Shown: piece by piece, positions 6,781-49,964 of the stretch | How the letters are laid out: each line of letters begins with the position of its first letter | How positions within the stretch are numbered: position 1 is the first letter of the stretch | From: Hysterangium stoloniferum | Taxonomy: Eukaryota; Basidiomycota; Agaricomycetes; Hysterangiales; Hysterangiaceae | Reading direction: 5' to 3' | Assembly: GCA_015178975.1 (NCBI GenBank) | Contig: WHVD01000121.1 | Coordinates: forward strand, 62,001-126,000 | Length of the DNA: 64,000 bases | Notes under the pieces: generated by a model | The model's database searches: none | What the model was told of the DNA's origin: nothing | The model's input: only the letters and a program-made list of their open reading frames with translations | Made by a program: the position numbers and the translations under genes

Positions 6781-9190
6781 GTTGCCTCTCCACACATTCA
6801 AGAGTTTACTCGCCTCAACACATCTGCTCTTTCACATTCTGATTCATTTTTCATTAAACTTATGTCTAATATGATCCCGAAATTCGTTTTTTCAGCTCTC
6901 ATAGATTCCGGCTCGACTCATTGTTTTTTAGATACAAAATTCACGCAAAAAAGTTCTTTGTCAACTTATTCGATAAATCCTGTCGGCCTCCGCCTCTTCA
7001 ATGGCACAAGTAATTCAGTTATTACTCAAGCTTGTGATTTATCCATCTGTTTCCTGTGTGGAACATCTCAATTGGTCACTTTCTATGTGACCCAGTTAGA
7101 CTCAAGTTGCTCGGTGGTCCTAGGACATAACTGGCTTACCCGCTACAATCCGTTGATTGACTGGATAGCTAACAGTATAACATTCCGGACTCCCGCGGCA
7201 GCCAAGGAAACTGCACCCGTCCTGGCCTCCACGGCACCTATGGCCTTCCCAGCATCTGCTGTCTCAAGGACTCCTGTGATCCCTATGGCACCCATAACTT
7301 CCCCGGAACCCACGGCACCTCCCTCTATTTCTCTGATTAATGCTGCAGCCTTTATTAGGGCTACAAAAATGGATGGGTCCCAGGCATTCACTATCAACTT
7401 AAAAATTGATGAAGCAACTGGACATTTTTCAACCCCAGTATCCGAATCTGAGAAAGCCGCTGACCTAGAAGGCATCCCAGAGAAATATAATGACTTCGCG
7501 GATGTTTTTAGCAAGCAGAAAGCTGACCGGCTTCCGCCTCACAGAGAATACAACTTAAAAATCAATCTTGAAGATGGCACCCAGCCACCCCTAGGACATA
7601 TTTACCCACTCTCATCCACGGAACTTTCCACAATCCACGATTTCCTGGATGAACATTTGTCCATAGGTTTTATCTGACCCTCAAAGTCTCCTTTTGGAGC
7701 ACCTGTTCTGTTTGTCAGAAAAAAGGATGGATCCCTTAGACTATGTGTTGATTTTAGAGGCCTCAATGCTGTCACCAAAAAGGATAAGTATCCACTCCCA
7801 CTCATATCTGATCTGCTCGATGCTCCACAGAATGCCCAGATTTACACCAAAATAGATCTCAAACATATAGATCTCAAACATGCCTATCATTTGGTCCAGA
7901 TTGCTGCAGGTGATGAATGGAAAACCACTTTTAGAACCCCGTTATGGGGCCTACGAGTGGTTGGTGATGCCCTTCGGACTCACCAATGCTCCATCTGTTT
8001 TTCAGCATTTTATCAATGACATTTTCTCCGACATGCTCGATGTATGCATCATTGTTTACTTGGATGACATTCTTATCTACTCTGAGAATCCCGCAGAACA
8101 CGACAAACAAGTCCATGAAGTTCTCTGGAGACTCAGACAACATGGTTTATTCATGAATGGTAAAAAATGTACTTTTGACACAGACTCCGTGGAATACCTG
8201 GGTTTCATCATGGGACCTGACAGACTCTGCATGGACGAAACTAAAGTGCAAGTCATCAAAGATTGGCCCCAAAAAGTTAAAGATATACAATCCTTCCTCG
8301 GCTTTGCCAATTTTTACTGACGTTTTATCCGTGGATATTCTGACATCACGGTACCCCTTACCAATCTTACGTGTAAGGGTACTCTGTGGAATTTTAATGA
8401 TAAGTGTCAAAAAGCTTTCAATCTTTTAAAAAATTCTTTTTCCTCAGCTCCTATTCTGTCGCATTGAAACTGGACCTCCCGCTCATCGTTGAAACAGACA
8501 CCTCGGATTATGCACTTGGAGCCATTCTGTCTATCCAGGACTCTGATGGAGAAGTCCACCCCGTGGCTTTTCTGTCCCGGACTTTTACCGGAGCAGAGCT
8601 CAACTACGATGTTCATGATAAGGAACTCCTGGCAATCCTTTCAGCTTTCAAAGCATGGCGACACTATTTGGAAGGCTCGGGAACTCCTATTGATGTTGTA
8701 ACAGATCACAAAAACCTGGAATACTTTTCTACCACAAAATGTTTGACCTGTCGGCAGGCCCGCTGGTCTGAATATCTATCTGCCTTCAATATGATTATCT
8801 GTTTTCGACCCGGCCATCTTGGCAGCAAACCCGACGCTTTAACTAGACGATGGGACATCTATCTTAAAGAGGGGAGCAACGACTATGCCACAGTAAACCC
8901 GCACAACCTGAAACCTATTTTCACCAATCAGCAACTTACCCCATCGGTCCGCACAACTTTCCTCATCAATGCCATTGTCTGTGGAATTATCATTATGGAT
9001 ATCGAAAAGTTACATCAAGATATTCTATTGGCAATTCCGCTAGACCTGATAACTAAAGAAAGCTCACCGTGACAAACCCATGGACCCCCCTCAGTGGTCT
9101 CTTGATCACCATGGTTTCATTAGACTTGACAATTGAATCTATGTACTGGACTCCAATGGCCTCTGCCTCAGGATCCTTCAATACAAACAT
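6740..9190 (+). pseudogene. pol: pol of element D (protease, RT, RNase H, start of integrase), broken
   Basis: The -1 frame after gag holds the aspartic protease (ALIDSGSTHCF near 6895) and runs to a TGA at about 7675, where element A has a CGT codon. RT continues after this with a small tandem duplication (about 7850-7880) and a frameshift near 7940. The YLDDIL catalytic motif is intact at about 8058. Another TGA lies at about 8318. RNase H ([23 protein letters not shown]) is open from 8404 to 9072. The integrase N-terminal region then continues in another frame to LQYKH and stops at 9190, where sequence jumps directly into a different gag (E). Confidence 0.8.
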
Positions 9191-10578: not shown

Positions 10579-11135
10579 TGTTAAGTGCCGTGTCGGGAAC
10601 TTATTCCGGAACTATCGGGAAGTCACCGGGAAGTCGGAAACTCGTGGATAGGGTCAGGACGTCGGCTTCAGCTTATGTGCTGCGCCTCTACGCAAACGCT
10701 CAATGTCCTTAATTTCGGAAGTGAACTTAACGACGGAAGATATGGATATTCAGAGTTCCGAAGAGTTCCGAATATCGAGCGTACAGAAAGACGGGAGGAG
10801 GAATAAGAAACTAAGTCGATATCAGATCTAAAGTAAAGTACAAATTCGCGGAAACTAATATAAGTCTACTCGTTATTGTACTACAAACTGAGACCATAAT
10901 AAGACGGAAACGGAAGTATTCTTAAAACGGAAATACAATAAGACATATTAGGAAGACAATATTCCGAGACGGGAATACAACAACAAACGAGTGAATACTT
11001 GTCAATGGACAAATTACCAAATGCGGAACAAACGAAGAACACGGATGATACGGTAACTATGATGTTCCGTAGTCGGATATCGAATGTGGGAGATCGGAAG
11101 TCGGATATTGAAACATCCGGGAACGGGTCGTAACA
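10579..11135 (-). repeat. 3' LTR of element A (family 1)
   Basis: 557 bases, nearly identical to 17512-18068. A G6-containing purine-rich tract lies next to it (about 11136-11146, minus strand GGGGGGTAC) and is the candidate polypurine tract for plus-strand priming. Confidence 0.92.
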
Positions 11136-11263
11136 GTACCCCCCTGTTAGGCTGAAATCCCATAGAGGCGATTAGGTACTGAGTGTTTGAAGCGACGGCT
11201 GACTGTTATGTGTCGTGAAATTTACGCAATTATGGAGGTGAGAGTTTCGGTTATTATTCTGAG

Positions 11264-11270
11264 TATAAAA
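11264..11270 (+). promoter_or_regulatory. TATA box of the antisense gene in element A
   Basis: TATAAAA 50-56 bases before the ATG at 11320, outside the LTR. Equivalent TATA sequences precede the antisense gene in B (minus strand, about 46775) and C (TATATAAAAA at about 39723), so the promoter is conserved with the gene. Confidence 0.65.
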
Positions 11271-11319
11271 CCCTCCAAATATTCGAATTAACGTTTTTGT
11301 TTCTTTATCCACAACTTGT

Positions 11320-12447
11320 ATGTCGATTCGTCGGCCGTTATTCATCACTACCCCGGAAGACTCAGATACCGAAATATCCGTACTTCAAAAGATGTTGAAG
11401 GTCGCAGAACTTCAACAAAAATGCCAGAAAATGGAGGAGTTGAAGCGACGACAGGAGGAGGAGGAAAGAGCGTTGATGCAGGAGTTGAAAGATGCGGAGG
11501 AGGCGGAGAAGCGGGAATTGGAGCGGGTGAAGGCGGAAAAAGAAAAAGAGTTGGCGAGGTTGCGGAAAGTGATGGAGGATCGGAGGTTGAAGGAAAAAGA
11601 AGTGAAGAAACAACAAGAAGCTGAGGCGGTGGAAAAACGTAAGGAGGTAAGGGAAGGAAAGGTGAGTCCAATTCCATAGATTTCCGTGGTTCCAACCGAT
11701 AACTGTTGCGTACAGCGAAAAGCCGTGGAGGTGGAAATAGAGGGAGAAGCTGGGCCTTCGAGTCCTAAAGTAAGTGCATCTACAAAAGGTCGGTAATTGA
11801 CTAATCCTTCGAAACAGAAACAAAAGGTCAAGGGTCCGGAACGGATGGAAATTGTCCACGAAACTCCGTGTTATCGATGTTCCATACGGAACATGACGTG
11901 TTGGAAACAGAAGGTAAAATGGGGCGGAACTTGCTATCCCTGCGCGGTTCTCAAACTTCCGTGCACCCTTGCCTCAAAAAGGGTTCCGAAAGGTGAGAAG
12001 ACTCCGAAAACTAAGGCTGCGGAAACTGAAACGTCGAAAACGGATAGTACAGGCATTGAGCTTCTCAAGGACACCGTCGACGCGTTGGTTTTTATCGGGA
12101 CGGAAGTTATGAAAATGCGGGATACAATGGATCGCCATAATGAGATCCAGGAGAAGGGTTTCCATTCGTTGGTCCGGAATTTCCGGAGGCAAAACGATTT
12201 CCTGGAGAAGATAATGGTTAGCATTGGTGTGATCGCAGTATCCGAGGGGTTTTCCGATAAGGCACGGGAAAAAGCTAATGATCCGTTGGCGGAATGTGTT
12301 GAAAAGAGGTGGGTGTCGGGAAAAGGGCCAGAAGAATCAGAGAGTGAAGATGACGAGGTACAGGATATGGTGGAAAGTGCGGAAATTGCTGAAGAGCCGG
12401 AGGTTGGGACGGAAGGTGGATTTGGGGTGTCAGAGACTTTAAGATAG
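11320..12447 (+). CDS. antisense accessory gene of element A: coiled-coil protein with Zn2Cys6-type cysteine array
   Basis: Lies opposite to gag-pol, between the pol stop and the 3' LTR. Exons 11320-11661, 11716-11769 and 11818-12447, joined by introns of 54 and 48 bases (gtgagt...acag and gtaagt...acag, the second with a CTAAT branch site), give 341 residues with no phase error. Residues 22-114 are a charged Glu/Lys/Arg coiled coil. Cysteines at 150, 153, 160, 171, 174 and 181 have spacing C-x2-C-x6-C-x10-C-x2-C-x6-C, the fungal binuclear zinc-cluster pattern, although the usual Lys/Arg-rich stretch is weak. A helical part (about 205-265) and an acidic Glu/Ser/Asp tail follow. The same gene, with the same two introns, is in C; B carries a broken copy. 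Possible roles: DNA or Gag binding, regulation of the element, or counter-defence. None is demonstrated. Confidence 0.8.
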
Positions 12448-12537
12448 ATTTAATAATATATTTTTTTTGACTTGCAAAACCTAAAACGAGTGTGAAAACG
12501 GAAGTGTCGGAAACTTGAACAGAAAAGAACAGAAGGA

Positions 12538-15500
12538 TTAAAGTGATGATAAAGGTCCGGGTTTGCCTGGATAAGCCGTGTGGAAGTCAGTAACAATTTC
12601 CATAGCATGTCCAAGTTCCGTGGCCAATATCCATGAAGTTTCCTCGTCGGTACCTTCATAACCTGCCCATTTAACTAAATAGAGCAATTTACAAGTACGT
12701 CGGCGATTGTCGATTTTAGAATCCAATATTTCGGAAACTTCGAATTCGGGTTCTCCATCAATGATGACCGGAGGGGACGGAGGTTGAGTACGTTCCGGGA
12801 ATGAGTTGGGAACACAAGGTTCCAACATGGAAACGTGGAAAACGGGGTGGACTGCTCGCATACTGTCGGGAAGACGGAGAGTCCATGAAAGTGAACCGGC
12901 TTGTGCTATAATTTCAAAAGGTCCTAAGAATTTCTCAGCGAGTTTTTTAGAAGGTCGGGTAGTACGGAAGAATTGAGCTTTTACAAAAACCTGATCACCA
13001 ACTTTAAAATTAGGAGGCGGAATCCTGTTTTTGTCCGCGGAACGTTGATAATGTTCCTGTGTGGAAGAAATAGCTTTCCGAAGTTCTTGATGTAATTCGT
13101 CAAGGTCGGTAATAAATTCTTGAGCACGGACAGAAGCCAAATCTCGTTCGGAATGTACTGTGAGATTCGGATTATAGCCTTTATTGGCGAAGAAGGGAGA
13201 TATGCCGGTGGTTGCATTCGGAGAGTTATTGTAGGCGAATTCCGCGATCGGAGAGTTATTGTAGGCGAATTCCGCGATCGGAAGAAGGGATTTCCAGTTG
13301 TCCTGTTGATAATTACAATAGATGCGGAGATATTGTTCCAGTGTTTGATTAACGCGTTCCGTTTGTCCATCACCTTCCGGGTGATATCCCGAGGTGAAGT
13401 GTAGTTTCATGTCGAGGGCTTTTCTGAGGGCCTGGAAGAAATGGGAGACGAACTTGGAGCCTCGATCGGAAGTTACGTGAGATGGAACTCCGTGTTTGGA
13501 AAATACGTGAATAATGAAAAGTTCCGCTAATTGTAAGGATGTGATTGTATCATGAGTGGGTATGAAAATGCCTTGTTTCGAGAATCGGTCCACAACGACT
13601 AGAATGGATGTAAAGCCTTCGGAAGTCGGGAGTTGTTCGATAAAATCCATGGAAATTGAATTCCAGGGTTTTTCTGGTATCGGGAGTTGCTTGAGAAGGC
13701 CGTACGGCTTATGCCTTTGGGTTTTGGAGCGTAAGCAGGTGGTGCATGACTTACAGAACTGAGTTACGAAATCTCGGAGGTTGGGCCAAGTATATTCTCT
13801 ACGGATTAAACCAAGAGTATTGTTAATGCCGTAATGTCCAGAGATTGGATGATCGTGTTTATACTGAAGTACGCGGAGTTGAAGATTGTCGGAATCTGGA
13901 ACGTAGATACGTCCATCGAGACGGATAAAACCTTGAGAGTCTTGTGACCATCGGGGTTGGTTGGGATTGTCGGGAATGTCTAAATGTGGCTTGAGGGCCG
14001 GGTCGGAAGTGAGTGCGGAAAGGATATCTTGATGTAATTGCTCAATGTCCAAAATCATGACGCTACGCATAATTGGATAGTAAAGGGAAGTTGCTCGGAT
14101 AGATGCGGAAAGTTGTTGCGTTGTAAAAACCGGTTTCAGGTTATGTGGATTAACAACAGCGTAGTTACTTTCCCCCTCTTTAGGATAGACGTCCCAACGT
14201 CGAGTCATGGCATCTGGTTTTCCACCAAGACGTCCGGGTCGGAAACGGATAATCATGTTGAAAGCGGAAAGAAATTCGGACCAACAGGCCTGCCGGCGGG
14301 TTAAAAGTTTAGTGGTAGAAAAATATTTGAGATTTTTGTGATCGGTAACGACGTCAACGGGAGTTGCGGAACCTTCGAGATAATGGCGCCAATGTTTGAA
14401 AGCTTCAAAAATTGCCAAAAGTTCCTTATCATGAACGTCGTAATTGAGTTTGGATACTGAAAGTGTCCGAGAAAGAAATGCGACCGGATGAATTTCACCG
14501 TCGGACTCTTGAATGGAAAGAATCGCGGCAATTGCATAATTGGAAGCATCGGTTTCCACAATAATCGGAAAATCAGGTTTCCAATGGGAAAGAATCGGGG
14601 CCGAAGTGAAAGCATTTTTCAAAGTCTGGAAAGCGGAGCGGCATTTATCGTCAAAAACCCATGGTTGAGTTTTACGGGTAAGACGAGTGAGCGGTACTGT
14701 AATATCCAAGTAGTTCCGAATAAAACCACGGTAAAAGTTGGCGAAACCTAAAAATGATTGAATGTCCTTGACCTTCCGTGGTTCGGGCCAGTCATGGACA
14801 ACTTGAACCTTGGTTTCATCCATACGGAGACCATCAGGGCCGATGATGAAACCTAAGTATTCAATAGAATCCATGTCGAAATAACATTTTTTACCGTTGG
14901 CGAAAAGGCCGTTTTTACAGAGTCTTCGGAAGACTTCACGGACCTGTTCATCGTGAAGAGCGGGATCCTCGGAAAATACCAAAATGTCGTCCAAATAGAC
15001 TATAACACATACGTCAAGCATGTCGGAAAATATATCATTAACACAACGTTGAAAAGCGGAAGGGGCGTTGGTAAGGCCGAACGGCATAACCAACCATTCA
15101 AAGGATCCATAGCGAGTCCGAAAAGCAGTTTTCCATTCGTCACCCTCGGCAATTCGAACCAAATGATAGGCGTGTTTGAGGTCTATTTTGGTGTAAATTC
15201 GAGCTTTCCGTGGGGCGTCGAGTAAGTCGGTAACGAGTGGGAGTGGATACTTATCTTTCCATGTGATGGAATTTAATCCTCTGAAATCAACACAGAGTCG
15301 AAGGGAGCCATCCTTTTTACGGACGAAAAGGACGGGTGCTCCATACGGAGACTTTGAGGGACGGATAAAACCTATCGACAAATGTTCATCCAGGAACTCC
15401 CGAATAGACGAAAGTTCCGATTGGGATAATGGGTAAATAGGTCCTAATGGAGGGTTTGAACCGGGCTCAATATCGATTTTTAAGTCGTAGGGCCTATGTG

Positions 15501-16253
15501 GTGCAAGCCTGTCAGCTTTTTGCTTACTGAAAATGTCCGCGAAATCATGGTATTTTTCGGGAACTCCTTCCAGATCGGCTTTTAGCTCGGATAATTCTGG
15601 AGTCGCAAAACGTCCAGATGCTTCATCAACTTTTAAGCTGATCGAAAAACATTGCGAACCATCCAGTTTACTCGCCCTAACAAATGCCGAAGCGTTGATG
15701 AGAGAGATTTTTGGGGGCTCGGAAGTTTCGATAGAAGCCAGAGATGCCGTTGATGCCGAAAAGGCGTTGGCCGGAATAGACGCTGCAGGAGGAACGGAAG
15801 TGTCGGGAGTCCGGAAAGTAATACTGGCCAATACCCAGTCAATCAACGGATTATATCGGGTGAGCCAGTTGTATCCAAGAACTGCCGAACAGCTAGAGTC
15901 CAACTGTGTTACGAAAAATGTAACCGTCTGGGATGTTCCACAAGGAAACCGGATAGACATGTCGCAGGCTTGAGTAATTGCCGTATTGCTAGTGCCGTCA
16001 AACAAACGCAAGGAAATTGCGGGAACAGAATGGAGTTTCAGATTATGTTTCATGGCAAAGGTGGTATCTACAAAACAGTGTGTGGAGCCGGAATCTATTA
16101 GAGCTCGGAACACTAAATTTCCAAAAAAGTCAGGGACGAGTTTTACAAATAATGAATCGGGATTAGAGAGAGCGGACGCGTTGAGACGGACAACCTCGGA
16201 AACATGGAGAGAGTCGACGCAACCCTCTGTCCGTGCAGGTTCCGGAGGGTTGC
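12538..16253 (-). CDS. pol: pol of element A: protease, RT, RNase H, integrase, chromodomain
   Basis: The open frame from 16253 to 12538 is -1 relative to gag and is probably made as a Gag-Pol fusion; the first internal Met gives a 1191-residue stretch (16113-12538). Using that numbering: aspartic protease ALIDSGSTHCF at the start; RT with [22 protein letters not shown] and catalytic YLDD near 371-374; RNase H (ETDASNYA, VTDHKNL); integrase with the HHCC zinc region (GHYG...CKSCTTC) and the DDE core (SMDFIEQLP, TSDRGSKF, DGQTERVNQTLE); and a C-terminal chromodomain (LLYLVKWAGYEGTDEETSW). All catalytic residues that I can check are present. Odd: ten residues, IAEFAYNNSP, are repeated in tandem near 13223-13285; B and C have them once. 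It ends 90 bases from the stop of the antisense gene, so the two converge. Confidence 0.9.
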
Positions 16254-16265
16254 TTACTCTTTTTT
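16219..16265 (-). promoter_or_regulatory. gag-pol -1 frameshift signal of element A
   Basis: Minus strand: A6 (16265-16260), 6-base spacer GAGTAA that contains the gag stop, then a 9-base perfect stem, GCAACCCTC (16253-16245) with GAGGGTTGC (16227-16219), and a 17-base loop. Spacer and stem fit a programmed -1 frameshift; the heptamer G-AAA-AAA is not a textbook X-XXY-YYZ site. Confidence 0.7.
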
Positions 16266-17477
16266 CGACTCCGTGGCGGGTTTATCCTTAGACGTTGTAG
16301 TCGTAGTGGAAGTTGCCGCGCAAGCCTTGGAAGAGCTAGATTTAACAGTACAGTCGGAAACCTTGTGTCCGCCTTTTCCGCAGAAAAGGCAGAGGTCGTT
16401 GTCCATACGCCGTTGTTTCTCCTTCGGGGTGAGTTTACCGTCGGTACCCAACAAATGGGAAATGTCGGGTTTGTCGGAAGTTGACTGTTTTTCCTTGTTG
16501 GATTTCTTGTCTTTCTTCTGGTCGGAATTTGATTTGCCAGTATTAGTGCCAGAGCCGGTATTATTGCCTGAATTGTTGCCGGAAGACTTGCTAGTCGACG
16601 CCTTGTTGTTCTGAGAACGTTCCGTCGGGTTCTCTCGAGAAACCTCGGCTTTTCGTTCCCAATAACGGGCATCGGATGTTTGAGCTTTCATCCGCATGAG
16701 TTGGAGAGTTTTTGGCTTCCCATCTTTGCAGATTTCATCTTTAAGGCGTGATGGAAGTCCCATATAGAAATGGTGCCTGAGGGCGGAATCATCCCATCCA
16801 CATCGTGCGGCGAGGGTATTGAACTTGACGAGATAATCGGAAACTCGTTGATTGTCCTTCATCTTGAGCGTCATTAGTTCGTTTTCTGCTTCGCCGGATT
16901 GATCGTAAGGTCCGAAATTAGTTTCCAGTTCTTCCACGAAAGCATCCCAGTCGTCGAGCCATACGGGTGTCTCGTCGGATATTCCGGATAGTCCGGGTTC
17001 GAACCAATCCTGAGCGGTATCCTTGAGATATGAGAGCGCAAAATTGACTTTTCGACTGTCGGATTTAAAAGCATTGGGTCGATCACGGAAACTGAAACGG
17101 CATTGAAGAAGGAAATTCTTCAATTTTTTTGGATCCTTGCCGGTAAATGGTTCGGGTTCTTTGACTCCGGTGCGGGATGATTCTTTACTATCCTCAGCGG
17201 ATTTCAAGTAATCAGCGAATTTGGAAATGGAGTTAAAAAGCAACATTCCAGTTTGATCATCGGAGGGTTTTGTCGATGTATCCGGTTGATCTTCTGCTTC
17301 GTTGTCGGTAGTGTGGGGAACATTGGTGTCCTTCGTTACCTCGGTAACCTCCTCGGTAACTTCTTCGACAGAAGCTGATGTTGTCGGCTGAATTGGGGTT
17401 TCGGGTTGGGTGGTGTAAAGTTGCAACGGGGATTGAAGTTGGGATGGTCCTTCGGCAGCTTTGCGTTTGGGACCCAT
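16254..17477 (-). CDS. gag: gag of element A (capsid plus zinc knuckle)
   Basis: 407 residues from the ATG at 17477, 34 bases downstream of the LTR edge. The acidic, Thr/Glu-rich N-terminus is followed by the Ty3-type capsid (FLLQCRFSFRDR, NFALSYLKDTAQDWF, WDAFVEELETNFGPYD, VSDYLVKFNTLAARCGW) at about 125-255. Next come a Ser/Asn/Gly-rich basic linker and a CCHC zinc knuckle CLFCGKGGHKVSDC near 370-383. It ends TESKKE-stop at the frameshift cassette. Intact; forms the virus-like particle and packages RNA by analogy with the family. B carries a copy with a stop inside the zinc knuckle. Confidence 0.9.
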   Translation of the reverse strand: MGPKRKAAEGPSQLQSPLQLYTTQPETPIQPTTSASVEEVTEEVTEVTKDTNVPHTTDNEAEDQPDTSTKPSDDQTGMLLFNSISKFADYLKSAEDSKESSRTGVKEPEPFTGKDPKKLKNFLLQCRFSFRDRPNAFKSDSRKVNFALSYLKDTAQDWFEPGLSGISDETPVWLDDWDAFVEELETNFGPYDQSGEAENELMTLKMKDNQRVSDYLVKFNTLAARCGWDDSALRHHFYMGLPSRLKDEICKDGKPKTLQLMRMKAQTSDARYWERKAEVSRENPTERSQNNKASTSKSSGNNSGNNTGSGTNTGKSNSDQKKDKKSNKEKQSTSDKPDISHLLGTDGKLTPKEKQRRMDNDLCLFCGKGGHKVSDCTVKSSSSKACAATSTTTTTSKDKPATESKKE

Positions 17478-17498
17478 GATGAGCGAGTCGCAGAGTTG

Positions 17499-17509
17499 AG
17501 ATCTGATAT
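17499..17509 (-). promoter_or_regulatory. self-priming primer-binding site of element A
   Basis: Minus strand ATATCAGATCT, two bases after the LTR end. It is the exact complement of AGATCTGATAT in the 5' LTR (17762-17752). TTATATTA (17796-17789) lies 34 bases before that LTR segment, placing the likely RNA 5' end exactly on the matching 11-mer. Confidence 0.75.
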
Positions 17510-17511
17510 AC

Positions 17512-18068
17512 TGTTAAGTGCCGTGTCGGGAACTTATTCCGGAACTATCGGGAAGTCACCGGGAAGTCGGAAACTCGTGGATAGGGTCAGGACGTCGGCT
17601 TCAGCTTATGTGCTGCGCCTCTACGCAAACGCTCAATGTCCTTAATTTCGGAAGTGAACTTAACGACGGAAGATATGGATATTCAGAGTTCCGAAGAGTT
17701 CCGAATATCGAGCGTACAGAAAGACGGGAGGAGGAATAAGAAACTAAGTCGATATCAGATCTAAAGTAAAGTACAAATTCGCGGAAACTAATATAAGTCT
17801 ACTTGTTATTGTACTACAAACTGAGACCATAATAAGACGGAAACGGAAGTATTCTTAAAACGGAAATACAATAAGACATATTAGGAAGACAATATTCCGA
17901 GATGGGAATACAACAACAAACGAGTGAATACTTGTCAACGGACAAATTACCAAATGCAGAACAAATGAAGAACGCGGATGATACGGTAACTATGATGTTC
18001 CGTAGTCGGATATCGAAAGTGGGAGATCGGAAGTCGGATATTGAAACATCCGGGAACGGGTCGTAACA
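17512..18068 (-). repeat. 5' LTR and promoter of element A (family 1)
   Basis: 557 bases. Inferred parts: U3 17763-18068 with a TATA-like TTATATTA at 17796-17789, and R-U5 17762-17512. It differs from the 3' LTR at seven positions, six of them CpG to TpG or CpA. Confidence 0.9.
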
Positions 18069-30600: not shown

Positions 30601-31725
30601 ACCTGCAGATGTACCATTAAGGCTGTTTGAGGTTGTCTCAATGGACCTGATTACCAGATTGCCTCCTTCTGCAGAGGGTGCTTACTCAGCCATCTCTGTC
30701 GCTGTGGATAAACTCACACATTTTTTAATTTGTGAGCCCACGACTTCAGATCTATCCACAGAAGGATTCATGTGAATCTTTGTGAATAAAGTAGCCACTC
30801 CTTTTGGCTTACCCTCAAGGTTAATCTGTGATCGAGACAAGAGATGGACCTGTAGGTTCTGGAGAGAGGTCTGTAAAGTATACGGAAGCGCCCTCATGGT
30901 ATCCTTGTCTCATCATCCTCAAACTGACGGTCAAACGGAAAACACCAATGCCATTGTCAAGCAAATGCTCAGAGCGTACTGCACTTCTTTGAAAGAGGAA
31001 TGGTCTAAATGGACTCAGGTGGTGGCTCATACCTACAATTCGATGGTTCAGAGTTTGACAAGTTACACACCAGCCTTTTTACTGATGGGATACCTACCGA
31101 GAGGAATGTCTCGCTGCCTAGGAGGGGACGATCCTGTGGTTCCCAGGGAATTGTCAGATAGCCCTTTAGCTGACCAATGGATTCTAGAATTGAAAAACCA
31201 TCAACAGGTGGTGTGGGATTCAATTGCGCGAGCACAAGAAATGCAAGCTTGCAGCTACAATAAGAAAAGGAGATCAGTGGAAGATATCTCAGAAGGAGAC
31301 TATGTTCTAATCAATTCCCATTCCCTCGAGCTTGTCAAAGCCAAAGGACCTGGGAGGAAACTTATACAAAGATGGATAGGACTGTTCGAAGTCTTGGAGA
31401 AGATCAATCCTCAAGTCTTTCGACTCCACATTCCCTTGGAATATCAACTACACCCAGTGATCAACTGAGACCATCTTAAAAAGTACCATCTCTCCCCCAA
31501 GGAATTCAGATCAAGGGAGCTACTCGAGAATCCTTGGGAACTGGACCATAATGATGGGAAGTACGAAGGAGAAGCTATAGTAGGACACAAAAAGCATCGA
31601 AATTGACTCCTCTTCCAAGTTTGATGGAAAGGGTATGGACCGGAAGAGGACACCTGGTTAAATGGCAATGACCTTCATAACACCCCTGCTCTTCTCAGAG
31701 CTTACAAAACTATTGATCAAATTTA
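27635..31725 (+). pseudogene. pol: pol of element F (protease, RT, RNase H, integrase, chromodomain), broken
   Basis: Protease near 27895 with IRLDAGANLSLIS (Ala in place of Ser/Thr after the catalytic Asp). RT at about 28900-29500 (VVIDYRKLNSLT, RRPFGLHNGPSIFQ, and YIDDIVIF after a stop and frame change). RNase H and connection are poor. Integrase includes the zinc region CDICQKTK near 30545 and the core (MDLITRLPPS, ICDRDKRW, DGQTENTNAIV). The chromodomain at about 31570-31690 (EAIVGHKKHRN, WKGYGPEEDTW) has two stops. At least eight stops or frame changes in all. Confidence 0.8.
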
Positions 31726-39574: not shown

Positions 39575-40042
39575 GTACCCTCCCTTTATGCTGAAGTCCC
39601 GAAGAGGCTCTAGACCTAGATAAGGTTCTTGTCGGCTACGTGCATGTGTCAAAAGTCATGTCGGTTACACGTATGTGTCAAGAAGTCATGTGATCTGGAA
39701 GGTAAGGTTCAAATGCGATGAGCCTATATAAAAATTTGAAAAAATAGAAATTCTTCTTCTTTATTACCCCCATCTTCGAAAAAATGGGACCCAAACCAAT
39801 GCCAAAACGAGCAATGCCAACTGCCGGGCACTCCGTATCGGGCACCTTGGAGTGCAGCCTAACTTTTGACGTGGCAAGAAGAGCAGCACCGACTTCGTGA
39901 GGAAGCAGAGAGGGAGGCCCAGGGAGGCCCAGGAGGCTCTGGACAAGGAGTACCAGGCGGCATTGGGTGTGGAGGAAGAGGCTGCAAGGCAGAGGGAACA
40001 AGAAGAGGAGGAGGCTGCACAGGTGGCCGCAGAGAATGCCTG

Positions 40043-40576
40043 TGTTATGACCCTTTCCCGGATGTTTCAATATCTGACTTCTGATCTCCAACTATGGAAC
40101 ATCATAGTTACCGTATCCTCTGCATTCTTCCCTTGTTCTGCATTTGGTAATTTGTCCGTCACTCGTTTGTCTATTGTATTCCCGTTTCGGAATATTGTCT
40201 CCCCAATATGTCTTATTGTATTTCTGTTTTAAGAATACTTCCGTTTCCGTCTTATTATGGTCTCAGTTTGTAGTACAATAACGAGAAGACTGTATATTAG
40301 TTTCTGTGAATTTGTACTTTACCTTAGATCTGATATCGACTTAGTTTCTTATTCCTTCTCCTGTCTTTCTGTACGCTCGATATTCAGAACTCTTCGGAAC
40401 TCTGAATATCCATATCTTCCATCATAAGTCTCACCTCTGAAATTAAGGACTTTGAGCATTTGCGTAGAGGCGCAGCACATAAGCTGAAGCCAACGTCGTG
40501 ACCCTATCCGATAGTTCCCGACTTCCCGGTGACTTTCCGATAGTTCCGGAATAAGTTCCTGACACGGCATTTAACA
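40043..40576 (+). repeat. 5' LTR of element B (family 1)
   Basis: TATATTA at 40293-40299, then AGATCTGATAT at 40326-40336 (33 bases later). The complementary primer-binding site ATATCAGATCT is at 40579-40589, two bases after the LTR. Confidence 0.88.
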
Positions 40577-40610
40577 GTATATCAGATCTCAACTCTGCAA
40601 CTCGCTCATC

Positions 40611-41826
40611 ATGGGTCCCAAACGCAAAGCTGCCGAAGGACCATCCCAAATTCAATCCCCATTGCAACTTTACACCACTCAACCTGAAACCCCAATTCAG
40701 CCGACAACATCAGCTTCAGTCGAAGAAGTTACCGAGGAGGTTACCGAGGTAATGAAGGATCCCAACATTCCCCACACTTCCGACAACGAAGCAGAAGATC
40801 AGCCGGAGATATTGAAAAAGAAATCTTCTGATGAACTGACTGAAATGTTGTTTATCAACTCCATTGTGAAATTCGCTGACTATTTGAAATCCGCTGAGGA
40901 TAGTAAGGAATCATCCCGCACTGGAGTCAAAGAACCCAAACTATTTACCGGCAAGGATCTGAAAAAATTGAAGAATTTCCTTCTCCAATGCCATTTCAGT
41001 TTCCATGATCGACCCACTGCATTTAAATCCGACAGTCGAAAAGTCAATTTCGCACTCTCTTATCTCAAGGATACCACTCAGGATTGGTTCGAACCCGGAC
41101 TATCTGGAATATCTGATGAGACACCTGTATGGTTCGACGACTGGGACGCTTTTGTGGAAGAACTGGAAACTAATTTCGGACCTTACGATCAATCCGGCGA
41201 AGCGGAAAATGAATTAATGACGCTTAAGATGAAGGACAATCAACGAGTTTCCGATTATCTCGTCAAGTTCAATACCCTCGCCGCACGATGTGGATGGGAC
41301 GATTCCACCCTCAGGCACCATTTCTATATGGGACTTCCGTCATGCCTTAAAGACGAAATCTGCAAAGATGGGAAGCCTAAAACTCTCCAACTCATGCAGA
41401 TTAAAGCTCAAACATCCGATGCCCGTTATTGGGAACGAAAAGCCGAGGTCTCTCGAGAGAACCTGACAGAACATTCTCAGAACAACAAAGCGTTGACTAG
41501 CAAGTCTTCCGGCAACAACTCAGGCAATAACACTGGCAGCTCTGGCACTAATACTGGCAAATCAAATTCCGACCAGAAAAAAGACAAGAAATCCAACAAG
41601 GATAAACAGTCAACTTCTGACAAACCCAACATTTCCCATTTGTTGGGCACCAACGGTAAACTCACCCTGAAGGAGAAACAACAACGTATGGACAATGACC
41701 TCTGCCTTTTCTGAGGGAAAGGCGGACACAAGGTTTCCGACTGTACTGTTAAATCCAACTCTTCCAAGGCCCAGGCGGCAACTTCCACTACGACTACAAC
41801 ATCGAAGGAAAAACCCGCCATGGAGT
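40611..41826 (+). pseudogene. gag: gag of element B
   Basis: About 90 percent like A gag from the ATG at 40611. A TGA replaces the second cysteine codon of the zinc knuckle (CLF-stop-GKGGHKVSDC, 41713-41715). Otherwise the capsid is open. Confidence 0.85.
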
Positions 41827-41828
41827 CG

Positions 41829-41875
41829 AAAAAAGAGTAAGCAACCCTCCGGAATCTGCACAGACAGAGGGTTGC
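41829..41875 (+). promoter_or_regulatory. gag-pol frameshift cassette of element B
   Basis: A6 at 41829-41834, spacer GAGTAA, stem GCAACCCTC (41841-41849) with GAGGGTTGC (41867-41875), loop 17 bases. Same as A although the loop has changed. Confidence 0.7.
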
Positions 41876-44800
41876 GTTGACTCTCTCCATGTGTCTGAGG
41901 TTATCTGTCTCAATGTGTCGCTCTCTCTAATCCCAATTCATTATTTGTAAAACTCGTCTCTGACTTTCTTGGAAATTTAGTGTTCTGAGCTCTGATAGAT
42001 TCTGGCTCCACACACTGTTTTGTAGATACCACCTTTGCCACGAAACATAATCTGAAACTCCATTCTGTTCCCGCAATTTCCTTGCATTTGTTTGACGGCA
42101 CTAGCAATACAGCAATTACCCAAGCCTGCGACATGTCTATCCGGTTCCCTTGTGGAACATCCCAGACGGTTACTTTTTTCGTAACACAGTTGGACTCTAG
42201 CTGTTCAGTAGTTCTTGGATACAACTGGCTCACCCAATATAATCCGTTGATTGACTGGGTATATTAATTTCCGAATTCCCGACACTTCAGCTCCTCCTGC
42301 AGCGTCTCTTCCGGCCAATGCCTTTTTGGCATCAACGGCATCTCCGGCTTCTACCGAAACCTCCGTGCCTCCAAAAATCTCTCTCATCAACGCTTCGGCA
42401 TTTGTTATGACGAGTAAACTGGATGGTTCGCAGTGTTTTTCAATCAGCTTAAAAGTTGATGAAGCATCTGAACATTTTGCGACTCCAGAATTATCTGAGC
42501 TAAAAGCCGACCTGGAAGGAGTTCCCAAAAAATACCATGATTTCGCAGACATTTTCAGTAAGCAAAAAGCTGACAGGCTTGCACCACATAGGCCCTATGA
42601 CTTAAAAATCGATATTGAGCCCGGTCCAACCCCTCCGTTAGGACCTATTTACCCATTATCCCAATCGGAACTTTCATCTATTCGAGAGTTCCTGGATGAA
42701 CATCTGTTGATAGGTTTTATCCGTCCCTCAAAGTCTCCGTACGGAGTGCCCATCCTTTTTGTCAGAAAGAAGGATGGCTCCCTTCGACTCTGCGTCGATT
42801 TCAGAGGATTAAATTCCATCACACAGAAAGATAAGTATCCACTTCCACTCGTTACCGATTTACTCGATGCCCCATGGAAAGCTTGGATCTACACCAAAAT
42901 AGACCTTAAACATGCCTATCATTTGGTCCAAATTTCCGAGGGCGATGAATGGAAAACTGCTTTTCGGACTTGCTATGGATCCTTTGAATGGTTGGTTATG
43001 CCATTCAGCCTTACCAATGCCCCTTCTGCTTTTCAACGTTTTGTTAATGATATATTTTCCAACATGCTTGGCATATGTGTTATAGTCTATTTGGACAACA
43101 TTTTGGTATTTTCCGAGAATCCCGCTCTTCACGATGAACAGGTCTGTGAAGTCTTCCGAAGACTCCGTAAAAACGGTCTTTTCGCCAATGGTAAAAAATG
43201 CAACTTTGATATGGATTCTATTGAATACTTAGGTTTCATTATCAGACCTGAGGGTCTCCGCATGATGAAACCAAGGTTCAAGTTGTCCGTGATTGGCCCG
43301 AACCATGGAAAGTCAAGGACATTCAGTCATTTTTAGGATTCGCCAACTTTTACCGTCATTTTATTCGGAATTACTCAGATATTACAGTACTGCTTACTCG
43401 TCTTACCCGTAAAACTCAACCATGGGTCTGACACGACAAATGCCACTCTGCTTTCCAGACTTTGAAAAATGCATTCACTTCTGCCCTGATTCTTTCCCAT
43501 TGGAAACCTGATGTTCCGATTATTGTGGAAACCGATGCTTCTGATTATGCAATTGCCGCAATTCTTTCCATTCAAGATTCTGACAGTGAAATTCATCTGG
43601 TTGCATTCCTTTCTCGGACACTTTCAGTATCCAAACTCAACTACGACGTTCATGATAAGGAACTTTTGGCAATTTTTGAAGCTTTCAAACATTGGTGCCA
43701 TTATCTCCAAGGTTCCGCAACTCCTGTTGATGTTGTTACTGATCACAAAAATCTCAAGTATTTTTCTACCACTAAACTTTTAACCCGCCGGCAAGCCCGG
43801 TGGTCTGAATTCCTTTCCGCTTTCAACATGATTATCCGTTTCTGACCTGGACGTCTTGGTGGAAAACCAGATGCCATGACTCGACGATGGGATGTCTATC
43901 CTAAAGAGGGGGAAAGTAACTACGCCATTGTTAATCCGCATAACTTGAAACCGGTTTTTACAACACAACAACTTTCCGCATCTATTCAAGCGACTTCCCT
44001 CTACTATCCAATTATGCATAGCATTATGATTATGGACATTGAGCAATTACATCAAGATATCCTTTCCGCACTCACTTCCGATCCGGCTCTCAAGCCACAT
44101 CTAGAAGTTCCTGACAATCCCGACCAACCCCGATGGTCACAAGACTCTCAAGGTTTTATCCGTCGCGATGGATGTATCTACATTCCAGATTCCAACAATC
44201 TCCGACTCTGCGTACTTCAGTATAAACACGATCATCCAATCTCCAGACACTATGGCATTAACAATACTCTTGGTTTAATCCGTAGAGAATATACTTGGCC
44301 CAACCTCCGAGATTTCATAACCCAGTTCTGTAAGTCATGCACCACCTGCTTACGCTCTAAAACCCAGAGGCATAAGCCATACAGCCTTCTTAAGCAACTT
44401 CCGATACCAGAAAACCCCTGGAACTCAATTTCCATGGATTTTATCAAACAACTTCCGATGTCTGAAGGCTTTACATCCATTCTAGTTGTTGTGGATCAAT
44501 TCTCGAAACAAGGCATTTTCATACCCACTCATGATACAATCACATCCTTACAATTAGCGGAACTTTTCATTATCCACGTATTTTCCAAACATGGTGTTCC
44601 GTCTCACGTAACTTCCGATCGAGGCTCCAAGTTCATCTCCCATTTCTTCCAGGCCCTCGGAAAAGCCCTTGACATGAAACTACACTTCACCTTGGGATAT
44701 CACCCGGAAGGTGATGGACAAACGGAACGTGTTAATCAAACATTGGAACAATATCTCCGTATCTATTGCAATTATCAACAGGACAACTGGAAATCCCTTC

Positions 44801-45516
44801 TTCCGATCGCGGAATTCGCCTACAATAACTCTCCGAATGCAACTACTGGCATATCTCCTTTTTTCACCAACAAAGGCTATAATCCGAATCTCACAGTACA
44901 TTCCGAATGAGATTTGGCTTCTGTCCATGCTCAAGAATTTATTACCGACCTCGACGAATTACATCAAGAACTTTGGAGAGCTATTTCTTCCGCACAGGAA
45001 TATTACCAATGTTCCACAGACAAAAACAGGATCCCACGTCCTAATTTTAAAATTGGTGATCAAGTTTTTGTAAAAGCTCAATTCTTCCATACCACCCGAC
45101 CTTCTAAAAAACTCGCTGAGAAATTCTCAGGTCCTTTTGAAATTATAGCACAAGCCAGTTCACTCTCATGGACTCTCTGACTTCCCGATAGTATGCAAGC
45201 AGTTCACCCCATCTTCCACATTTCCATGTTAGAACCCTGTGTTCCTAACAAAATCCCGGAACGTATCCAACCTCCGTCCCCTCCAGTCATCATTGACGGA
45301 GAACCTGAATTTGAAGTTTCCGAAATTTTGGATTCTAAAATCGACAATCACCGCCGTACTTGTAAATTGCTCTATTTAGTCAAATGGGCAGGTTATGAAG
45401 GTACTGACGAGGAAACTTCATGGATATTGGCCACAGAACTTGGACACGCTATGGAAATTGTTACTGACTTCCACACAGCTTATCGAAGCAAACCCGGACC
45501 TTTATCATCACTCTAA
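41876..45516 (+). pseudogene. pol: pol of element B
   Basis: Same domain order as A with scattered stops and frame changes: TGA near 41986 just before the protease, a frame break at about 42265, a one-base loss near 43262, TGA at 43427 and 43843 (CGA to TGA), 44908 (CGA to TGA) and 45178. The RT catalytic motif is YLDN instead of YLDD (43090-43101, GAC to AAC at a CpG), so the enzyme would be dead even without the stops. Integrase 44180-44930 and the chromodomain near 45380-45440 (LLYLVKWAGYEGTDEETSW) are recognisable. Confidence 0.88.
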
Positions 45517-45615
45517 CCCTTTTCTGTTTTCTTCTGTTCAGTCTCTGACACTTCCGACACTTCCGTTATCACACTCGCTTTTAGGTTTTGCAAGTCAAAA
45601 AAAATATTATTAGGA

Positions 45616-46721
45616 CTATTTTAAAGTCTCTGATACCCCAAATCCACTTTCCATCCTGACTTCCGTCTCATCAGCAACCTCTGCACTTTCCACCATATCC
45701 TGCACCTCTTCATCCTCACTCTCTGATACTTCCGGCCCATTTCCTGACTCCCACCTTTTCTCGACACATTCCGCCAACGGATCATTAGGCTGTTCCCATG
45801 CCTTATTGGAAAATCTCTCGGATACTGTGATAACACCGATGCTAACCATTATCTTCTCCAGAAATTCGTTTTGCCTCCAGAAGTTCCGGATCAACGAATG
45901 GAAACCCTTTTCCTGGATATCATTATGGCGATCCAGTGTGTCCCGCATTTTCATGACTTCCATCCCGATAAAAACCAATGTGTCGACGGTGTCCTTGAGG
46001 AGCTCAATGCCCGTACTATCCATGTTCAGCATCTCAGTTTCTGCAGCCTTAGCTGTTCCCGAACCTTCCACATCGTTAGCTTTCTGAGCCTTCTCACCTT
46101 TCAGAACCCTTTTCGAGGTGAGAGTGCATGGAAGGTTGAGAACCGCGCAGGGATAACAAGTTCCACCCCATTTTACCTTCTGTTTCCAACATGTCATACT
46201 CCATACTCCATATGGAACATCGATAACATGGAGCATCATGGACGACTTCCATCCGTTCTGGAGCCTTGACCTTTGGCTTCTGTTTCGGAAGTTAATCAAT
46301 TACCAATCTTTTACAGATCACTTACTTTAGGACTCAAAGGCCCAGCTTCTCCCTCTACCCCCACCTCCATGGCTTTTCGCTGTACCCAATAAGTTATCGT
46401 CTGAAATTAAGTTTTTCCGCCACCTCTGACTCCTGCTGTAATCTGTCCACCTCTTCCTTCTTTTTCTGAGCCTCCGCTGTTTTCCAGATCCATGCTTCTT
46501 TTTCTGCCTTCGCTCGCTCCAACTCCCATTTTTCCGCCTCTTCCGCCTCTTTCAACTCCTGCATCAATGCCTTTTCTTCCTCCTCCTGTCGTTGCCTCAA
46601 CTCCTCCATCCTTTGTCATTTTTGTTGAAGTTCTGTGACCTTCGACATTTTTTGAAGTACGGCAATTTCGGGATCTGAATCTTCCAGGGTAGTGATGAAT
46701 AATGGCCGACGAATCGACATG
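45616..46721 (-). pseudogene. antisense accessory gene of element B, broken
   Basis: Starts MSIRRPLFITT at 46721 like A, preceded by a conserved TATAAAAA. Exon 1 has a TGA at about 46620 (TGC in A). The zinc-cluster region has a 7-base duplication (about 46200) that shifts frame between the second and third cysteines. The C-terminal helix and acidic tail (45616-46150) remain open. Confidence 0.8.
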
Positions 46722-46904
46722 CAAGTTGTGGATAAAGAAACAAAAATGTTAATTCAAATATTTGGAAGTTTTTATACTCAGAACAACAGCTGAAACCCTC
46801 ACCTCCAGAATTGCATAAATTTCACGACACATAATAATCAGCCGTCGCTTCAATCACTCAGTACCTAATCGCCTCTATGGGACTTCAGCCTAACAGAGGG
46901 GTAC

Positions 46905-47446
46905 TGTTACGACCTGTTCCAGGATGTTTCAATATCTGACTTCCGATCTCCGACTACGGAACATCATAGTTACCGTATCCTCCGTATCCTCCGCATTCTT
47001 CCCTTGTTCCGCATTTGGTAATTTGTCCGTCACTCATTTGTCTATTGTATTCCCATTTCGGAATATTGTCTCCCCAATATGTCTTATTGTATTTCCGTTT
47101 TAAGAATACTTCTGTTTCCGTCTTATTATGGTCTCAGTTTGTAGTACAATAACGAGAAGACTTATATTAGTTTCCGCGAATTTGTACTTTACCTTAGATC
47201 TGATATCGACTTAGTTTCTTATTTCTTCTCCCGTCTTTCTGTATGCTCAATATTCGGAACTCTTCGGAACTCTGAATATCCGTATCTTCCATCATAAGTC
47301 TCACCTCTGAAATTAAGGACTTTGAGCGTTTGCGTAGAGGCGCAGCACATAAGCTGAAGCCAACGTCCTGACCCTATCCGATAGTTCCCGACTTCCCAGT
47401 GACTTTCCGATAGTTCCACAATTAGTTCCCGACACGGCATTTAACA
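46905..47446 (+). repeat. 3' LTR of element B (family 1)
   Basis: TGTTACGACCTG to CATTTAACA, 542 bases, preceded by AACAGAGGGGTAC, the candidate polypurine tract. Confidence 0.9.
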
Positions 47447-49964
47447 GCCTGGGTGGCTGCGGAGAAAGCCTGGGTGGCCACGGACAGGGCCACGATTGTT
47501 GCGGGAAAGGTAAGTCCCAATTTAACTTGCTGTTTTTTTTTTTTTGACTGACTTGTTATTTTCAGCGCAAAGCAACAGAGGTGGAGTTGGAGTCCAAGGG
47601 GGAGCCAGAGAGCCCCCAAAAGGTAAGCCTCAGGTCCATGGGATAACCGTAGGAACTGACTGTATCAACAGAAGGCAAGGAAGGTGGCGCCAGTCCACCT
47701 ACCCACACAGAATGACCCGCAGTGTTCCAGTTGTAATGACCAGAACACTGAATGCAACCGAAAGTCTGGCCGGGGTCCGGGCTGCTATCAATGTGCACAC
47801 CTCAAGGCAAGGTGCTCGCTCATTCACGAGCAGGCCGTGGGGTCCGGGGCACGAGACATAAGTGGGTTGGACGGGTTGGATGGGTTGGACAAAGTCTTAG
47901 GACAGATTGCCGAGGGCATCGAGGCCCAAAACGAGTTGTTCCGGAAGAGCAACAAGGTCCACATAGTGGTGGCGAAGGAACTGTGTGGACTCCGTGAGGA
48001 ATTTTGGAAGTTCCTGGCAGAGTATGGTGGCTATGTATATGAAGAGCCGCAAGTCGGGAGTTCCGAGGATGCTGGGTCAGATGAGGATGGGGTTGCCATG
48101 GAGGTCGTGGAGCTTCCTGAGAAGGTAGCTCAGGAGGCGGGGAAAAAACAAGTCCCATAAATGTAGACTGAAAAAGTAGTATAGAATAAAAAATAATTTG
48201 AACATAAAGGTAAAGTGTGAAAAACATAAGAAATTGAAGTCAAAGTCAAAGTCCACGGAAAATCCATTTGAAGACTTGAAAGACATGTCAGAACCTGTAA
48301 AAGCAAAGAGAGACATAGGGTGACAGGGAATAATGAAAATAAGTCCAAATGTACTGTAACATGGGGTCCCCAGAGTGTGGTCAGAGAGACGATAGTGGTC
48401 CGGGTTTGAGTGGGTAAGCTGTATGAAAGTCAGTAACGATTTCTGTGGCATTACCGAGTTCTGTGGCCAAAATCCATGAGGTTTCTTCATCAGTGCCCTC
48501 GTAACCCGCCCACTTGACCAAGTAAAGCAGTTTACAAGTGCATCGACACTTGTCAATTTTCGAATCTAAAATTTGCGAGATTTCAAACTCGGGTTCTCTG
48601 TCAATAATGACTAGAGGAGGTGGAGATTGCATGCGATCTGGGATAGTGTTAGCAGTACAAGGTTCTAGCATAGAAACATGAAATACCGGGTGTACCGCAC
48701 GCATGCTATCCGGAAGCTATAGAGTCCAAGAAACTGAATCTACTTGTGCGATAATTTCAAACGGACCTAAATATTTTTGAGCAAGCTTTTTTGATAGATG
48801 GGTAGTCTGGAAGAATTGAGCTTTGACAAAAACACGGTCGCCAATCTTGAAATTGGGTGGCGGAATCTGGTGTCTGTCCATGGAAAGTTGGTATTGCTCT
48901 TGGGCGGACTTTATTGCAGTCTGGAGTTCCTCGTGGAGGTCTGTGGTGAACTCTTGAGCACGAGCAGAGGCGAGATTTCATTCTGGATGTACTGTAATAT
49001 TTGGATTATATCCTTTATTTGCAAAGAATGGGGAAATGCCAGTAGTGGCCGAGGGTGCATTGTTGTAAGCAAACTCTGCAAGTGGTAACAAGGATTTCCA
49101 ATTGTCCTGTTGGTAGTTGCAATATACGTGGAGGTATTGTTCCAATGTCTGGTTGACATGTTCGGTTTGTCCATCCCCTTCCGGGTGATGTCCGGACGTG
49201 AAATGTAGTGTCATGTCCAAGGATTTCCCAAGGGATCTAAAGAAGTGAGACACGAACTCTGATCCTCAATCGGAAGTCACGTGGGATGGAACTCTGTGCT
49301 TGGAAAATATGTGGATAACAAAACATTCTGCTAACTGCACGGACGTGATTGTGTCATATGTAGGGATGAATATACCTTGTTTTGAGAATCTGTCAACAAT
49401 GACTAGAATGGCGGAAAAGCCTTCGGAATCCAATAGGTGTTCAATGAAATCCATAGAGATAGAATTCCACAGGTGTTCCAGTACCGGGAGTTGTTTCAAA
49501 AGGCCGTATGGCTTGTGTCGCTGAGATTTCGAGTATGGACAAGTAGTGCAAGATTTACAATCGTGCTTAACGAATCCACGGAGTCTGGGCCAAGTATATT
49601 CTCTTCTTATTAGTGATAGAGTTTTGTTGTACCTGAAATGTCCTGAGAATGGATGATCACTAAAGTGACATTGCATGAGGAAGGTGGAAAGTTTGCTGGG
49701 GTTGGAACCCATGAAGGGTTCTGGAGCATTGACTTTGGACCACAAAGGTTCCTGATCCTTCTTTTTACCTTCTCTGAGCATGTGATTCATCAATCTTTCT
49801 AAAGTGATTGTTAACAACTTGGAAGTGGCATCTGAAAGTGGCAGTCGGTCATTGAACAAGGAATTTTCGACACCTTTGCCCTTGTCGGGGGCCACAGACT
49901 CATCCTCATGTTCAGATTTGTCCAGGTTTTCTGGGACTTCTTCAATACAGGGCTCATCTGTGGC

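Follow-up and report, generated by a model that had tools for sequence, protein, structure and literature searches.

Why do retrotransposons conserve genes on the strand opposite to gag and pol? The question is open, and for plant retrotransposons that carry such antisense genes the cited account gives the function as unknown (PMC11963269). The window analysed here, a stretch of 64,000 nucleotides from the genome of the basidiomycete false truffle Hysterangium stoloniferum (Agaricomycetes, Hysterangiales), raises the same question for a fungus, as three of its LTR retrotransposons (A, B and C) carry an antisense gene. In the literature searched, PMC3248453 included, no fungal antisense gene of this kind was found, which does not prove that none exists.

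Structure of the antisense gene

Element A spans positions 10579-18068; the minus strand encodes its gag and pol, and identical five bases flank its LTRs. It is a chromovirus by its reverse transcriptase, RNase H and integrase, present in that order, and its C-terminal chromodomain (Pfam). A and B belong to one family (family A) and C to a second (family C). The coordinates of all three are given in Table 1.

The original prediction, made from the letters of the window, placed a gene on the opposite strand between the chromodomain and the 3′ LTR. In A this was borne out: the gene lies between the minus-strand end of pol, chromodomain included, and the 3′ LTR. Its three exons are joined across two GT-AG introns, both in phase 0, and the spliced product is 341 amino acids long. 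Glutamate, lysine, arginine and glutamine make up 57% of exon 1, and exon 2 holds a basic stretch that, judged by eye, looks like a nuclear signal. The tiny exon of 18-19 codons foreseen between two introns common to A and C has 18 codons in A and 19 in C. The six cysteines, expected with a central spacing of x9 or x10, read C-x2-C-x6-C-x10-C-x2-C-x6-C in A, with x9 replacing x10 in C. The acidic C-terminus is likewise there, with 15 acidic and two basic residues in the last 45 of the A protein, and the TATA boxes claimed upstream of the ATG were found in all three elements. The stop codons of the convergent pol and antisense genes of A are 90 bases apart.

The copies in the window differ in their state. 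That of A has an open reading frame and lacks 27 in-frame bases that are present in B and in most other A copies. A gene had been claimed for B at 45616-46721, and there is one, but its ATG starts at 46720 and it is broken in three places: codon 35 is a stop, 47 bases that include the intron-1 donor are deleted, and exon 3 has a 7-base insertion. The two pieces claimed for C were both found, but exon 1 contains a stop and the gene is interrupted by B. A six-frame search of the whole window with the cysteine spacing returned three matches: A, C and one low-complexity sequence.

Table 1. Coordinates within the window of the antisense genes and the elements that carry them.
Feature	Position	Strand	Remarks
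3′ LTR of A	10579..11135	-	CGGAA-dense
TATA box, antisense gene of A	11264..11269	+	
Antisense gene of A, exon 1	11320..11661	+	charged, helical-looking N-terminal part
Antisense gene of A, exon 2	11716..11769	+	18 codons, KRKA...SPKK
Antisense gene of A, exon 3	11818..12447	+	six-cysteine cluster, helix, acidic C-terminus, stop
Six-cysteine cluster codons of A exon 3	within 11869-11964	+	
pol of A	12538..16113	-	protease, RT, RNase H, integrase, SH3_Tf2-1, chromodomain (Pfam); CGGAA excess
gag of A	16254..17477	-	
5′ LTR of A	17512..18068	-	98.6% identity to 3′ LTR
TATA, antisense gene of C	39725	+	
Antisense gene of C, exon 1 first piece	39784..40042	+	internal stop
Element B (family A)	40043..47446	+	inside antisense gene of C; GCCTG each side
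Antisense gene of B	45616..46720	-	broken
TATA, antisense gene of B	46770-46775	-	
Antisense gene of C, remainder of exon 1	47452..47509	+	
Antisense gene of C, exon 2	47566..47622	+	19 codons
Antisense gene of C, exon 3	47672..48160	+	six-cysteine cluster

Other mobile sequences share the window. One element that carries an antisense gene (B, 40043-47446) sits within the antisense gene of another (C, 39784-48160). Positions 28354-31468 hold the remains of another gypsy family, with reverse transcriptase and SH3_Tf2-1 matches. This family is numerous in the genome (3073 candidates, of which 114 were scored), and its copy in the window gave no six-cysteine antisense gene. Positions 61605-63686 hold the beginning of a copia-type element, open for 693 codons. 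Stretches of 182 bases that recur, and a frame on the minus strand whose weak helix-turn-helix match is below the Pfam cut-off, at 4226-5092 and 4365-4799, are perhaps the relic of a DNA transposon.

Conservation across the genome

The search for further copies covered the 111.1 Mb assembly (554 contigs). For family A, 40 copies were scored of 352 candidates and 30 loci were analysed, window copy A among them. For family C, the 744 candidates yielded 40 scored copies and 30 excised loci, of which 29 were analysed, the window copy being left out because it is split. Copies of one family are not independent of one another, and the following counts are to be read in that light.

Start, stop and both GT-AG introns (54 and 48 bases) are kept in 30/30 A copies, 23 of which have a reading frame open throughout. 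Each of the four splice dinucleotides is kept in all 30, compared with 53% of the 170 other GT or AG dinucleotides of A. The ATG is kept in 28 of the 29 C copies and the splice dinucleotides in 29, 29, 28 and 29; ten of the 29 combine the ATG with a frame of 294 open codons, and an eleventh open copy (L037) lacks the ATG. All six cysteines are present in every A copy (30/30) and every C copy (29/29), decayed copies included. Mean residue conservation is 0.90 in A and 0.87 in C, and the TATA box is kept in 30/30 and 27/29 copies, respectively.

The place of the gene is fixed as well. A convergent pol end adjoins the antisense gene in 60/60 loci. Conversely, of the 40 family A pol 3′ ends listed (from 1468 candidates), 25 adjoin a listed antisense gene by coordinate comparison, and the gene is also there in all of five more that were fetched, although one of these has lost much of its interior. 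These 30 of the 40 are the pol ends examined. In one family A copy (L068, G000:C410:385140-386490), the antisense gene is mostly deleted between exon 1 and the last 50 bases, and the pol end beside it is 99% identical. Copies of this type might depend on others for the protein.

Selection on the antisense gene

Diversity at codon positions 1, 2 and 3 is 16.4, 9.4 and 31.3 in exon 3 of A (27 of 30 copies) and 12.7, 11.7 and 32.5 in exon 3 of C, a pattern absent from the introns and from the C upstream region. It is this pattern that settles the coding strand, as the sense strand of the same span also holds long stop-free runs (137-221 codons in A, 126-215 in C). The antisense gene has a dN/dS of 0.31 when open copies of one A subfamily are paired with those of the other (112 pairs), 0.27 within C (55 pairs, 11 open copies) and 0.50 within the seven open copies of subfamily A2, beside 0.20-0.22 for the adjacent pol (the 16 of 23 open A copies with a pol frame long enough). 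A dN/dS near 1 with loss of the cysteines had been named in advance as an outcome that would refute the original interpretation. The opposite was found, with ratios of 0.31 and 0.27 and the cysteines in all 59 copies. The antisense gene is thus genuine, spliced, protein-coding and under purifying selection in both families, and this much of the interpretation first proposed, a conserved spliced antisense protein gene in two chromovirus families, stands.

These data bear on two alternatives. The first, that the frame is a functionless chance opening or a relic, could draw on the stop-free stretches of the sense strand, and we give it next to no credence: third-position diversity is confined to the antisense exons, splice sites and cysteines are kept, and the homologue in a second family, whose pol lies at a dS of 2.0 from that of A, shares both introns. 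The second holds that the antisense transcript matters rather than the protein, by overlapping or abutting convergent pol RNA and so leading to dsRNA silencing or interference. With stop codons so close together in A, the untranslated ends may overlap; selection at the protein level and the retention of cysteines and splice sites make this reading highly improbable.

The proteins of A and C are homologous (BLASTP 2e-7, with both phase-0 introns in common) and have diverged fast. They are identical at 84/285 aligned residues, compared with 970/1237 for pol, and dN is 0.79 for the antisense gene and 0.14 for pol. The antisense protein has diverged about 5.5 times as fast as pol. The divergence is also mosaic. 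Copies L013 and L027, one from each A subfamily, differ by 0-7% per sliding window outside a block of 13-31% that covers the zinc cluster and the part following it. L007 and L013 differ by 0-4% save for one block of 9-24% farther downstream, and L023 and L027 by 0-6% save for one block of 17%. Recombination between diverged cassettes would give blocks of this kind.

Relatives and domain assignment

The spliced A protein had no match in the protein database at E ≤ 10. A profile of exon 3 had one (E ≤ 1), a gene model from Hysterangium stoloniferum with resemblance to a fragment of family C. In the public annotation (P0121), this fragment appears as a hypothetical protein whose cysteine cluster is missing its first half; the annotation of the gene is therefore probably wrong. 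Pol has 3373 relatives at E ≤ 1e-10; among the 120 listed, three carry an organism name, Trametes. Metagenome contigs also hold pol relatives, with 65-76% identity. Despite these many pol relatives, the protein database held no antisense relative from outside this genome, which may reflect the introns, fast divergence or true absence. Among viral contigs, none was confirmed to carry pol.

Zn2Cys6 domains (PF00172) have the spacing C-x2-C-x6-C-x(5-12)-C-x2-C-x(6-8)-C, and both proteins fit it, with x10 in A and x9 in C. The Pfam cut-off of 21 bits was not reached for this family: A had no match and C scored 8.0 to 10.6 bits. Compared with solved structures, a profile of the zinc region found PPR1 (1PYI) best at E 0.33, and a profile of the whole of exon 3 placed PPR1 eighth at E 1.9, with unrelated proteins ahead. 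Structure models from two window sequences, in which a binuclear zinc fold would be looked for, were too poor to judge it, with pLDDT values of 45 and 41. The TRP28 domain (PF04195) was not among the Pfam matches of the A and C proteins. Elsewhere in the genome, a duplicated host region (L066, G000:C56:37000-46900, at 2180-2780 and 7802-8393) holds three Zn2Cys6-type clusters per copy. Two of these lie near each other within a single frame of about 220 codons; such a multi-cluster layout is unusual.

Family-specific CGG-type motifs

Zn2Cys6 proteins typically target pairs of CGG triplets, as described in PMC5559640. In a count of all short words, CGGAA occurs 98 times over the 7.5 kb of family A, both LTRs included, where 28 are expected; in family C, also with both LTRs, GGACTCC occurs 19 times against 1.4 and CCGTGGA 17 times against 1.3. 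The density of CGGAA is 13 per kb in A and 0.6-1.8 in five other stretches of the window, and it is again the top 5-mer in a third A-family copy, from subfamily 2. Motif words were picked and tested in the same few elements. The reciprocal pattern in two families and a dyad test over all classes, both described below, reduce this concern, which persists in part.

Dinucleotide shuffles served as the null for LTRs, which are not known to encode a protein, and shuffles preserving protein, codons and all dinucleotide counts as that for pol. The two A-copy LTRs hold 14 and 15 CGGAA against 2.0 and 2.3 when shuffled (0/1000), with no GGACTCC, CGG-N3-CCG or CGG-N5-CCG. The two C-copy LTRs hold four and five GGACTCC against 0.17 and 0.14 (0/1000), three CGG-N5-CCG each against 0.42 (8 and 5 of 1000) and two and six CGG-N3-CCG against about 0.4 (50 and 0 of 1000), with no excess of CGGAA. 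Motif density peaks in the LTR, at 25 per kb.

The enrichment extends into pol. That of A has 40 CGGAA against 26.9 and 18 TCGGAA against 8.5 (0/1000 each). That of C has 16 CCACGG against 5.0, ten CCGTGGA against 2.0 and six AGTCCGG against 1.5 (0/1000 each), together with 13 CGG-N5-CCG against 3.1 and ten CGG-N3-CCG against 3.2 (0/400 each); the pol frame of a second C copy has seven against 2.0 and five against 1.4, respectively (2/400 each). CGG-N5-CCG tops all 804 well-populated dyad classes in C pol, at a level that the best class did not reach in 1000 shuffles. The picture has exceptions. Among the dyad classes of A pol there is no outlier, CGGAA comes behind CGGCA in the ranking of its 5-mers, and CCACGG, a word of the C type, shows a mild excess there (5 against 1.8, 18/1000). 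CGG direct repeats in A fall within the codon-preserving null, A gag shows no excess of CGGAA (10 against 9.8) and, in the antisense genes of A and C, the words of the respective family are not significantly enriched. As a control, a pol frame of another gypsy family (one copy, 2,295 bases) has four CGGAA against 3.5, no excess; it contains one CGG-N5-CCG and no CGG-N3-CCG, in a frame that is short and poor in such words.

None of the 19 alignable C pol dyads is found in A pol, and 10/39 CGGAA sites are common to A and C pol, about the rate of arbitrary 5-mers (458/1971). To judge from these alignments, the motif sites arose anew in each family. The listed motifs are absent from the antisense promoter stretch (window 11136-11319, and 209 bases in L061), an absence that over 180 + 209 bases is below significance. 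It is as if the antisense gene were perhaps outside its own control.

Several motifs are biased to one strand (GGACTCC 18 to 1, ACTTCCG 14 to 1). Such bias is compatible with sites of the kind bound by VANC proteins of plant VANDAL transposons, and also with an RNA-level signal. The motifs could then guide a protein whose target is the RNA or cDNA of the element and whose role lies in packaging or in the steering of integration; their presence in pol would suit this too. We consider that very unlikely, as CCGTGGA shows no strand bias (8 to 9), CGG dyads in inverted orientation are sites of the DNA type and the antisense gene, if expressed, uses a separate antisense promoter; according to PMC5735166, VANC21 motifs are likewise strand-biased.

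A further alternative is that a host Zn2Cys6 factor drives the LTR through the CGG sites while the antisense protein acts otherwise, for example by contacting the silencing machinery. LTR promoters commonly use host factors, and at least 42 Pfam Zn_clus matches are listed in the host genome. Pol is full of sites as well, however, and the codes of the sister families differ, which would suit a factor that varies from element to element, as the antisense protein does; this leaves a host factor quite unlikely.

Discussion

In two chromovirus families, a spliced antisense gene with conserved splice signals is kept by purifying selection in a fixed place beside pol, diverges fast and in mosaic fashion, and is accompanied by family-specific motif enrichment. 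The original prediction had suggested that the gene perhaps controls element expression, and the CGG motifs in LTRs and pol lend this support. Its other suggestions, that the gene may have been captured from the host and may serve dsRNA production or integration targeting, are more conjectural. A Zn2Cys6-like cluster, a basic stretch, a predicted helix, an acidic end and family-specific CGG sites are most simply read together as a self-addressing regulator. We put at about even the chance that the protein is a Zn2Cys6-like, self-targeting DNA-binding activator or anti-silencing factor that acts as VANC does. Its own TATA promoter, on the antisense strand, would drive expression of the protein, which would bind zinc, enter the nucleus and recognise CGG-containing motifs scattered across its own element family. 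It would thus return to the copies of that family, binding most densely at the LTRs, and once bound would keep or switch on the gag-pol promoter as a self-specific activator or anti-silencing factor, activation being in our inference more probable than repression. Retrotransposition would leave the introns in place, as they are present in the sense genomic RNA only as reverse complements.

Against this explanation we count the strand-biased motifs, the Pfam score below cut-off, the low rank of PPR1 with the whole exon-3 profile, the choice of words in the elements tested and the single control element, together with the lack of word excess in A gag and the antisense genes and, in A pol, the rank of CGGCA, the mild excess of CCACGG and the lack of an outstanding dyad class. 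The same self-binding protein might also repress its own family as a control of copy number, by closing down the LTR promoter or by preventing further insertions as copies accumulate. The structural and motif evidence, including the peak of motif density in the LTR, fits repression equally well. Selfish copies should easily lose a purely self-limiting gene, yet all 30 A pol ends examined have it, one of them internally deleted, and the acidic C-terminus would point to activation; we therefore regard repression as unlikely.

An anti-silencing activator would probably have a target in this genome. In decayed copies, transitions are 2 to 4 times as frequent at CpG as at other C/G sites, and the genome has two DNA-methylase matches, so methylation of the elements is likely. 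A comparison for protection of motif CpGs gave a decay of 0.066 vs 0.070 in A and 0.112 (21/187) vs 0.173 in C.

A wider model is more tentative, and we hold it at somewhat less than even. It proposes that a lineage of Agaricomycete chromoviruses carries an antisense-encoded, family-specific anti-silencing activator, a coevolving CGG address code and an exchanged recognition cassette. The code would run through the LTRs and also through pol, there mostly at synonymous positions. Between sister families it would have been rewritten, sites of the CGGAA type giving way to CCACGGA and inverted CGG-N3/N5-CCG sites, with the recognition part of the protein swapped as a recombining cassette. Since the candidate target code is visible alongside its protein and differs in two families, a single binding experiment can test it. 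If the model is true, the sequence-specific self-addressing that has been shown in DNA transposons of plants evolved in LTR retrotransposons of fungi too, with a different type of protein.

There are several known systems with which this one can be compared. Bdelloid rotifer LTR retrotransposons also carry additional ORFs; these are of enzymatic origin, and the cited account mentions no antisense intron-bearing genes (PMC5408684). TET/JBP dioxygenases are likewise carried by fungal mobile elements and thought to aid escape from silencing, but they are enzymes on DNA transposons, for which the cited account reports no sequence address code (PMC12730594). The antisense ORFs of Retand, Grande and RIRE2 are closer in position, lying between pol and the 3′ LTR of Ty3/Gypsy elements; they are kept across families and suspected of DNA binding (PMC11963269). 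Retand differs in belonging to a non-chromovirus lineage and in its TRP28 domain, which was not found here, and a target-site code is not reported for these ORFs in that account (PMC11963269). PPR1 (1PYI), Gal4 and Pho7 share the six-cysteine spacing and CGG-type sites, pairs of CGG for most of them, and the TCGG(A/T) site of fission yeast Pho7 is near the TCGGAA in excess in family A (PMC5559640). In contrast to these fungal regulators, the proteins described here fall below the Pfam cut-off, differ in the residues between the cysteines and are borne by mobile elements.

The closest likeness is to VANC. In the reports cited, the VANC proteins of Arabidopsis are encoded by VANDAL elements and recognise short motifs of their own family, which differ in related families and turn over quickly between them, and silencing is lost as a result (PMC5735166; PMC10398659); VANC21 motifs are enriched solely in their own family and frequently in one orientation (PMC5735166). 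Those motifs lie mainly in non-coding tandem repeats, unlike the A and C sites spread over LTR and pol, and VANDALs are plant DNA transposons whose loss of silencing was shown by experiment, as opposed to LTR retrotransposons known from their sequence. Unlike VANC, the gene here is antisense and encodes a six-cysteine cluster. What is new is that each family bears its own CGG-containing motifs. As with VANC, these short family-specific motifs are concentrated in their own element (by comparison with one control element) and often lie in one orientation, the protein has conserved and fast-changing parts, and the candidate code turns over quickly.
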